From Clostridia bacterium (GTDB lineage: Bacteria > Bacillota > Clostridia > TANB77 > RGIG9151): a stretch of DNA of 50,353 nt. The stretch covers positions 1-50,353 of the forward strand of contig JAGBIO010000010.1 of NCBI GenBank assembly GCA_017934955.1, given 5' to 3'. Numbering within the stretch: the stretch's first letter is position 1; each line of letters begins with the position of its first letter. Below, in pieces: positions 423 through 34,767 of this stretch. The position numbers were made by a program, and so were the translations under genes. The notes under the pieces are model-generated. The model made no database searches and was not told the DNA's origin. It worked only from the letters and a program-made list of their open reading frames with translations.

Positions 423-449
423 ATGGTAGGGGACGCCGTCCCCTACCAT
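423..449. repeat. REP palindrome ahead of the RAYT gene
   Basis: A perfect inverted repeat with 13-base arms and a single central C. The core is TAGGGGACG facing CGTCCCCTA. Related palindromes lie inside the following gene and after it. An in-frame ATG falls inside this palindrome but has no ribosome site and is not the likely start. Confidence 0.85.
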
Positions 450-485
450 TATTTGTTGAAAATTATTGCGGATCGAAGGAAAAAA

Positions 486-1043
486 ATGTATAATTATCTT
501 GAAAATTCCAAAAAAGAGGTGAGTTATATAGGATTAGCAAAGCGAAAAAGGAATCGATTGAAGGATTATGATTATTCGCAAGATGGTGCTTATTTTATAA
601 CAATTTGTACAGAAGATCATAAGTGTATTTTATCACAAATCGTAGGGGACGGCGTCCTCAACGTCCCGAAAGTAGAATTGACTGAATGTGGCGCTATTAT
701 TCAAGGGCAGATTTGTTTGATGGAGGATAGATATGAGCTTGTTAAGATTGAAAAGTATGTTATTATGCCAAATCACTTGCATTTTATCATACGAATTTGT
801 AATTCATTAGAAGTTTGTATAGTCGGGACGTCGAGGACGCCGTCCCCTACTAATGCATTAATTCCTCAATTTGTATCGACGTTGAAGAGGTTTTGCAATG
901 TAAAGTATGGAAAGAATATTTGGCAACGTTCTTATCATGATCATATTATTCGAGGAGAAAACGATTATCAGATGATATGGGATTATATTGAAAATAATCC
1001 GGCAAAGTGGAGAAAGGATTGTTTTTATAAAGAAGAAACATGA
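486..1043 (+). CDS. REP-associated tyrosine transposase (RAYT, Y1/HUH family)
   Basis: A 185-residue single-strand DNA transposase of the TnpA/RAYT branch of the IS200/IS605 superfamily. It carries the HUH-type metal motif His97-Leu-His99 in MPNHLH. The C-terminal stretch DYQMIWDYIENNP (from Asp160) holds the candidate catalytic tyrosine. The ATG at 486 is chosen because an AAGGA site lies just upstream and the earlier in-frame ATG at 423 sits inside a palindrome. RAYTs mobilise or maintain REP palindromes. Here the gene is flanked by REPs and also encodes two of them in frame, at residues 53-61 and 113-122, as an inverted pair. The reading frame is intact. Family assignment is firm; activity is not known. 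Confidence 0.88.
   Translation: MYNYLENSKKEVSYIGLAKRKRNRLKDYDYSQDGAYFITICTEDHKCILSQIVGDGVLNVPKVELTECGAIIQGQICLMEDRYELVKIEKYVIMPNHLHFIIRICNSLEVCIVGTSRTPSPTNALIPQFVSTLKRFCNVKYGKNIWQRSYHDHIIRGENDYQMIWDYIENNPAKWRKDCFYKEET
642..668. repeat. REP copy inside the RAYT coding sequence (first)
   Basis: 27 bases beginning GTAGGGGACGG. Its reverse complement matches the copy at 824-850 at 26 of 27 positions. It is read in frame as residues 53-61 of the transposase. Confidence 0.85.
824..850. repeat. REP copy inside the RAYT coding sequence (second, inverted)
   Basis: 27 bases ending CCGTCCCCTAC, identical to the copy at 1050-1076 downstream of the gene and inverted relative to 642-668. It is read in frame as residues 113-122, between the HUH motif and the C-terminal tyrosine helix. 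Confidence 0.88.
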
Positions 1044-1049
1044 GAAAAG

Positions 1050-1076
1050 CGGGACGTCGAGGACGCCGTCCCCTAC
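1050..1076. repeat. REP copy downstream of the RAYT gene
   Basis: Identical over 27 bases to 824-850 in the same orientation. It starts six bases after the RAYT stop codon. Confidence 0.88.
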
Positions 1077-14383: not shown

Positions 14384-14452
14384 TGTAGGGACAGCATTTA
14401 TGCTGTCCACAGAAAAGGCAGAAAGCAGGACAGCATGAATGCTGTCCCTACA
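14384..14452. mobile_element. Palindromic repeat element (copy C)
   Basis: Left half 14384-14408 and right half 14428-14452, both with the AGCAT/ATGCT stem, outer ends TGTAGGG and CCCTACA. The left flank (ACTATATCTTT..) resembles that of copy B. The right flank (GGTTGCGCCATCATTGCAGGA) resembles the right ends of copies A and B. Outer terminal repeats are eroded. Confidence 0.8.
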
Positions 14453-15437: not shown

Positions 15438-15612
15438 GGGTATTGTTGGCGTTACTATGCAGACTTAAATTTATGGAAATGGCATAAATAGTGTAGGGAC
15501 AGCATTTATGCTGTCCACAGAAAAGGCGGAATGCAGGACAGCATGAATGCTGTCCCTACAAGGCTTTAGCGAAAATAATAAGTTGGTAAGTGCTGAATAG
15601 GGTATTGTTGGC
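15425..15612. mobile_element. Repeat element (copy D) flanked by a 25-26 bp direct repeat
   Basis: The left terminal repeat GTTACTATGCAGACT starts at 15451. Nested palindromic halves lie at 15492-15516 and 15536-15560 (AGCAT/ATGCT stem). The sequence at 15425-15450, which covers the end of the permease gene, is repeated at 15588-15612 with one base missing. The left copy directly abuts the GTTAC end. The usual right terminal repeat is not seen. The duplication is far longer than a normal target-site duplication. Confidence 0.75.
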
Positions 15613-16410: not shown

Positions 16411-16579
16411 TTTGAACTGTTACTATTCAGACTTAAGTTTATAGAAAGGCCATAAATAGTGTAGGGACAGCATTTATGCTGTCCACAGAAAATGCGGAAT
16501 GAAGGACAGCATGAATACTGTCCGTACAATGATTGCCTCAATATTATAGGAAATATAGTCTGAAATGTAACTTTGAACT
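16411..16579. mobile_element. Complete MITE-like element (copy E) with 8-bp target duplication
   Basis: The element at 16419-16571 (153 bp) begins GTTACTATTCAGACT and ends AGTCTGAAATGTAAC, inverted to each other at 13 of 15 positions. TTTGAACT directly flanks both ends (16411-16418 and 16572-16579). Nested halves at 16460-16484 and 16504-16528 carry the AGCAT stem with one stem change. It has no coding capacity, so it must be mobilised in trans. It lies between sigH and the promoter of the next gene. Confidence 0.85.
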
Positions 16580-22939: not shown

Positions 22940-23013
22940 TGTAGGGACACAATTTATTGTGTCCAAGCAGTAGGCGAAAAGTAGAATTGGGACACAATAA
23001 ATTGTGTCCGTAC
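22940..23013. mobile_element. Palindromic repeat element (copy F)
   Basis: Left half 22940-22964 and right half 22990-23013, ACAAT/ATTGT stem, outer ends TGTAGGG and CCGTAC. It lies between the membrane-protein gene and yicC. Longer terminal repeats are not recognised. Confidence 0.8.
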
Positions 23014-34648: not shown

Positions 34649-34767
34649 TGTAGGGACACAATTTATTGTGTCCATTGAAGAGGAAAAGATAAAAACAGGA
34701 CACAATAAATTGTGTCCGTACAGTAAGAATGAGGCACTATCTTGTAGGGACAGCATTTATGCTGTCC
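34649..34767. mobile_element. Palindromic repeat element (copy G) plus a tandem half copy
   Basis: Full copy: halves 34649-34673 and 34698-34722, ACAAT/ATTGT stem. A half copy at 34743-34767 has the AGCAT/ATGCT stem. Both are preceded by GCACTATCT. The outer sequence was thus copied while the stem type changed. Confidence 0.8.

Follow-up and report, generated by a model that had tools for sequence, protein, structure and literature searches.

A clostridial gene for a RAYT (REP-associated Y1 transposase) carries, in frame within its own coding sequence, an inverted pair of the REP palindromes that are dispersed through the same genome, and the same two sites are filled in deeply diverged homologues. 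Comparison of these genes shows that the internal pair derives from REPs, keeps its place and orientation, is conserved at the DNA level and has a single type per gene; for the three types tested it also matches the dispersed REPs, and it is largely exclusive with a pair flanking the gene. We propose, with roughly even confidence, that the RAYT gene carries a REPIN-like cognate inverted pair in cis, which would keep the transposase and its target linked. That REPs can lie in frame inside RAYT genes is already known from a 2018 report (PMC6006769); within the open-access literature, a second site, a fixed inverted pair, concerted switching of type and an inside-or-outside alternation are apparently new.

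The gene belongs to the window, the 50,353-nucleotide stretch of DNA analysed here, and its frame is intact from position 486 to a stop codon at 1041-1043 (Table 1). The encoded protein matches the NCBIfam profile REP_Tyr_transpos (NF047646) with E=1.9e-17 and 63.5 bits, under the curated cut-off of 80, and the Pfam profile Y1_Tnp (PF01797) with E=4e-4 and 21.1 bits, under the cut-off of 23. The nearest solved structure, with a profile E of 2e-13 and a fold E of 7e-7, is 4er8, the E. coli RAYT TnpA_REP in complex with a REP hairpin. As the protein combines an HUH motif (H97-L98-H99, in invariant alignment columns), a single candidate catalytic tyrosine (Y161) and a predicted TnpA_REP fold, it is, as judged from sequence and model, a RAYT of the HUH/Y1 kind; like other RAYTs, it is linked to a dispersed GTAG-REP family of its own genome. 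That genome holds one full match to the protein and one paralogue at 37%.

Table 1. Positions of the RAYT gene, its REP copies and the second-family REP pairs within the window.
Feature	Position	Strand	Basis
"Double foot" REP ahead of the gene, a perfect palindrome that has GTAG/CTAC at its ends	423..449	.	sequence
AAGGA, ribosome-binding-site-like motif ahead of the RAYT coding sequence	476-480		
RAYT coding sequence, 185 aa	486..1043	+	ORF, NF047646, PF01797, 4er8
In-gene REP, site 1, residues 53-61 (VGDGVLNVP), 1 mismatch to genomic consensus	642..668	+	in frame; alignment
HUH codons H97-L98-H99, flanked by the two in-gene REPs	774..782	+	translation; invariant alignment columns
In-gene REP, site 2, within residues 113-122 (VGTSRTPSPT), equal to genomic consensus	824..850	-	in frame; alignment
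Codon of candidate catalytic Tyr (Y161), beyond the REP-bracketed segment	966..968	+	alignment to RAYT family
REP after stop codon, identical to site 2	1050..1076	-	outside gene, 6 bases past stop
Second-REP-family pair	1862-1934	+,-	
Second-REP-family pair	14385-14451	+,-	
Second-REP-family pair	15493-15559	+,-	
Second-REP-family pair	16461-16527	+,-	
Second-REP-family pair	22941-23013	+,-	
Second-REP-family pair	34650-34721	+,-	

A preliminary description of this DNA had reported a 27-base unit, CGGGACGTCGAGGACGCCGTCCCCTAC, identical at 824-850 and 1050-1076 and inverted with one mismatch at 642-668, a palindrome at 423-449, and in-frame reading of two copies as residues 53-61 and 113-122. 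All four positions are confirmed, and the codon arithmetic agrees with the frame. Alignment of homologues bears out the accompanying suggestion that these residues are insertions: both stretches are missing from the homologues at loci L041, L043, L050 and L055, and none of the homologues compared has the residues without the palindrome. In an AlphaFold2 model (mean pLDDT 79), both stretches fall in loops, residues 53-61 lying between strands 50-53 and 62-65 and residues 111-121 forming a low-confidence loop that follows strand 97-104 and precedes helix 125-141. A search of the 1.57 Mb window genome for the 27-mer yielded 92 sites with at most three mismatches, 48 of them exact, and none for the reversed pattern used as a control. 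Of these 92 sites, 28 distinct ones were inspected, and the ones among them in long open frames (L007, L015 and L025) lie, by eye, upstream of gene starts. Within the window gene, third-position G+C is 0.88 in the REPs against 0.26 elsewhere. This gene is not a clean example of the inside-or-outside alternation, as there is REP material to either side of it too.

Within the order, 32 of 388 genomes searched have homologues, and a scan of named genome contigs contributed 80 further loci, mainly from clostridial MAGs but also from Chakrabartyella piscis, Gemmiger formicilis, Ruminococcus flavefaciens and Fonticella tunisiensis. Among the 96 genes analysed, 67 carry a (+,-) pair, two a (-,+) pair, nine a single site and 18 none, and in none of the 96 do the two sites share an orientation. 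Throughout the 67, site 1 is a forward REP in the first strand/helix A interval and site 2 a reverse REP past the HUH strand; site 1 is occupied in 71 of the 96. The standard pair, in dozens of REP types, is present in 62 of 71 clostridial homologues from the contig scan, a ratio that is no population frequency because the loci scanned were ranked by how closely they resemble the window protein; it is present in 4 of 24 in the order sample, and a broad phylum sample gives a mixed picture. A single event behind the two flipped pairs (L035 and L037) was considered and is not demonstrable at a branch support of 33.

These comparisons do not support the earlier statement that REPs normally lie beside RAYT genes and not inside them: internal copies are common in the clostridial relatives found and are published for RAYT subclass 2.4 (PMC6006769). 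They also divide the earlier proposal of self-insertion, of which the REP derivation and the preserved frame stand and a local, recent accident does not, since the same two sites are filled across deep protein divergence and with concerted types. A recent self-insertion unique to the window genome is rejected, both sites being common to deeply diverged homologues. The earlier description also raised self-silencing as a possible outcome; the window gene has kept an intact frame.

The two copies within a gene resemble one another far more than they resemble those of other genes. The 67 paired genes hold 53 distinct site-1 and 52 distinct site-2 sequences, and the sites agree at 21.6 of 23 bases within a gene as opposed to 13.3 of 23 between genes, a correspondence that none of 10,000 shuffles reaches. 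Six differences separate site 1 of L073 from that of L097, and the identical six are mirrored in site 2; L062 and L090 are separated by 12 changes common to both sites. When the REP columns are left out of the tree, L062, L074 and L090 are close relatives, yet their REP types are unrelated to one another, and in each gene both sites hold the same type. Where the copies of a gene differ, 16 stem pairs have changed on both sides, all of them still pairing, as against 2.4 expected if the sides were independent. Across many gut clostridia, both copies switch type in concert, so that enzyme and DNA target appear to be tied to one gene.

The REPs are conserved at the level of DNA. In all 16 gene pairs whose cores are 70-84% identical, the REPs are 84-100% identical, as compared with 44-75% for third positions of shared residues; the DNA of the REPs is thus kept at divergences that have saturated third codon positions. 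Mean third-position G+C across the genes is 0.69 in REPs and 0.41 elsewhere. Site 2, moreover, is read in two frames, one used by 58 genes and the other by 13, which yield different peptides. Because third positions are conserved within the REPs and site 2 occurs in two frames, the encoded peptide is not the conserved object.

For the three types tested, the internal type also corresponds to the REPs scattered through the genome. Counts of three types across a panel of 21 genomes gave 39, 41 and 8 copies of type A in the three genomes whose RAYT bears type A, 13, 55 and 35 copies of type B in the three whose RAYT bears type B, and 21, 13 and 40 copies of type C in the three whose RAYT bears type C, with mostly none or few in the other panel genomes. 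The exceptions, at 8-62 copies, are type A in G792, G793, G794 and G797, type B in G800 and G802, and a variant of type C in G796; a second RAYT in G794 (L108_1), itself flanked by type A REPs, accounts for the copies in that genome. Many dispersed REPs in G787 and G794 form (+,-) pairs with 76-157 bases separating the arms. A derivation of such pairs from the RAYT interior by internal deletion was rejected, as their interiors in both genomes are unrelated to it. In some dispersed pairs the arms differ, by eye, by C[T/C]C in the loop.

Examination of the flanks shows that RAYT genes tend to have the pair either inside or outside. A flanking inverted pair accompanies 14 of the 29 genes that have no internal pair (a count that includes L050, whose A+T-rich match is no REP) and 1 of the 67 that have one (Fisher p=4e-8). 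Within one clade, L036 has its pair outside and L034 inside, and L033 has one REP upstream and one at site 2. Both arrangements coexist in the window genome, where the window RAYT has its pair inside and the paralogue L002 has REPs of a second type at its flanks. Twenty further RAYT places were fetched afterwards; of the 16 that are usable members of the window RAYT family, seven have a flanking pair, seven an internal pair, one (L200) is ambiguous and one (L202) does not fit. The remaining four are a partial gene (L205) and distant RAYTs (L211-L213) that fit neither pattern, as is the case for most of the phylum sample. Counted on well-supported branches, three independent inside-versus-outside contrasts follow the rule and none opposes it, too few for significance. 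Two related ideas were abandoned: own-type REPs nested around internal pairs are no general rule, any being seen in only 13 genes, and L058 is not an excision scar between two REPs, for its central part is gone yet no single REP remains at the junction. At L041, L047, L055, L203 and L204 the RAYT gene stands between inverted repeats, each about 30 bases long, which open with GTAGGGG and lack an obvious palindrome; these are mutually related and recall published RAYT relatives flanked by TIRs.

We interpret the forward GTAG-REP ahead of the HUH codons and the reverse one behind them as a built-in pair, housed in two surface loops that would tolerate it and apparently replacing the inverted pair found around other RAYT genes. 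REP hairpins in single-stranded DNA are recognised and cleaved by RAYTs, and in E. coli the GTAG is crucial (PMC8266576). The pair may be retained since the system would depend on having its cognate REPs paired in cis, and enzyme and target would then be inseparable by recombination or horizontal transfer. Were the recognised REP type to shift, both copies would be rewritten, by REP-to-REP conversion or by selection. The arrangement could also limit itself, as excision between the two REPs would delete the HUH codons and, in the mRNA, the copies are predicted to pair as one long stem. A broader version, in which RAYTs of this family require one cognate inverted pair in cis, the clostridial pair has repeatedly come to occupy two loops of the coding sequence and not the flanks, and types switch wholesale, is put forward tentatively and is the more doubtful of the two. 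On that version, enzyme and DNA target would be inherited as one unit, with a target type that changes at both sites. The observations bear on how each RAYT stays paired with its own REP family and on why RAYTs persist. A coding sequence that bears its cognate REP twice, in dozens of natural types, gives a direct readout of REP-RAYT pairing over many genomes, and because in-gene REPs can be recoded synonymously, they permit a clean test of whether the REPs of a RAYT locus have any role in cis.

A serious rival to this cis-pair reading is neutral insertion with gene conversion, in which old REP insertions in tolerant loops were inherited without function and kept current as RAYT activity or recombination overwrote them with other REPs of their own genome. 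Both sites are loops in the model, and these loops are evidently tolerant, since their length varies and REPs within them are duplicated in frame (L066, L078 and L096); REPs are also found inside other genes in other bacteria (PMC3733652), and genomic REP conversion could by itself yield concerted types. Against this rival, the copies are always inverted and never in the same orientation, the two sites switch jointly even when most of the REP changes, and functionless inserts would not be expected to coincide with loss of the flanking pair. Because the inversion is invariant and flanking pairs are rare where an internal pair exists, we judge a maintained cis pair somewhat likelier than passengers kept by conversion, to which we would give a substantial but minority chance. 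Counting against the cis-pair reading, in addition to conversion, are that the genes are not evolutionarily independent, with only the three contrasts noted above on well-supported branches, that L211-L213 and most of the phylum sample fit neither pattern, and that the window gene does not illustrate the pattern cleanly.

A regulatory role, whereby the REPs would hold RAYT expression down through a long stem in mRNA or single-stranded DNA, or through binding of the RAYT to its own transcript or gene, is improbable. Of 65 predicted mRNA folds, 60 join the two sites in a duplex of at least 15 bases, and a 5' UTR structure and small RNAs are reported to regulate the ISPpu9 transposase (PMC8450116); the complementarity of the sites nonetheless follows from the inverted layout and so is no independent evidence, and a flanking pair would demand a single transcript spanning both REPs. 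It is very unlikely that the REP-encoded residues themselves are needed, for instance to contact REP DNA: although nearly all REP-bearing members have the loops and site 1 starts with Val-Gly, the peptides of different types have little in common, the two frames of site 2 give different peptides, conservation within the REPs extends to third codon positions, and homologues that lack the residues are still intact. Chance, or G+C-rich codon runs that resemble REPs, would have local G+C content alone in its favor and is refuted by the genomic count of the 27-mer against its reversed control, and by the agreement of the two copies within each gene.

Among the closest known systems is subclass 2.4 (RAYT group 4), which PMC6006769 describes as abundant in Cyanobacteria and Bacteroidetes, with in-frame REPs inside tnpA_REP genes that lie generally between HuH and Y and are termed peripheral. 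Site 2 of the window gene fits that description, in that a REP with the frame kept occupies a peripheral loop after the HuH, and "double foot" REPs like the one upstream of the window gene are found there too. We do not file the window protein under this subclass, however, because its HuH-Y distance (62 residues from H99 to Y161) is shorter than the reported median of 88. Relative to that account, the clostridial genes add a site before the HuH, the fixed inverted pair, concerted switching and flanking alternation; the two-site pair, the switching and the alternation are unreported in the open-access full texts searched, and Figure S10 of PMC6006769 may show part of this. REPtrons such as that of E. 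coli TnpA_REP have cognate GTAG-REPs beside an HUH/Y1 transposase, a layout seen in homologues without internal REPs, L002 included, whereas the window-type pair lies within the coding sequence, and genes of this type mostly have no flanking pair. As in REPINs, the window copies (642-668 forward, 824-850 reverse) are inverted, of one type and with GTAG ends outward, and such pairs are dispersed in the same genomes; unlike the unrelated interiors of dispersed pairs, however, the internal pair encloses transposase coding sequence with the HUH codons, and the whole unit with its interior is not multicopy in the window genome, so that the likeness is one of layout only. Rickettsia palindromic elements and intragenic REPs (PMC3733652) are likewise short palindromes in frame within proteins, but occur there in many unrelated genes, as opposed to two fixed sites in the REPs' own transposase in most relatives found. 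That same paper describes REPs within other ORFs and RAYTs flanked by REPs or inverted repeats.

Inspection of individual loci revealed several variations. Two or three in-frame copies of the in-gene REP stand in tandem at site 2 of L066 and L096 and at site 1 of L078. An RAYT-like frame of about 359 residues (L168, G712:C14) has its site-2 region swollen by a long, in-frame, repeat-rich insert that opens with a REP. More distant RAYT-like genes (L157, L160 and L161) carry in-frame GTAG palindromes past the HUH strand, of the double-foot kind in L157 and L160, and the site-2 habit therefore extends past the window clade. At L057 (2040-2130), the HUH-codon region and its adjacent REP are repeated directly after the gene, about 90% alike by eye, and a REP may here have been copied along with its coding flank.

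The window also holds a second REP family, GTAGGGACA[CA/GC]A..TGTCC, arranged as inverted (+,-) pairs whose starts lie 43-49 bases apart. The paralogue L002 (G000:C22), which is flanked by identical arms, is likely the partner of this family. Across the genome (L003-L032), many copies of the 27-mer (REP-I) lie about 16-20 bases past a reverse REP-II arm with ATT just before them, a mosaic, BIME-like mix of two REP families.
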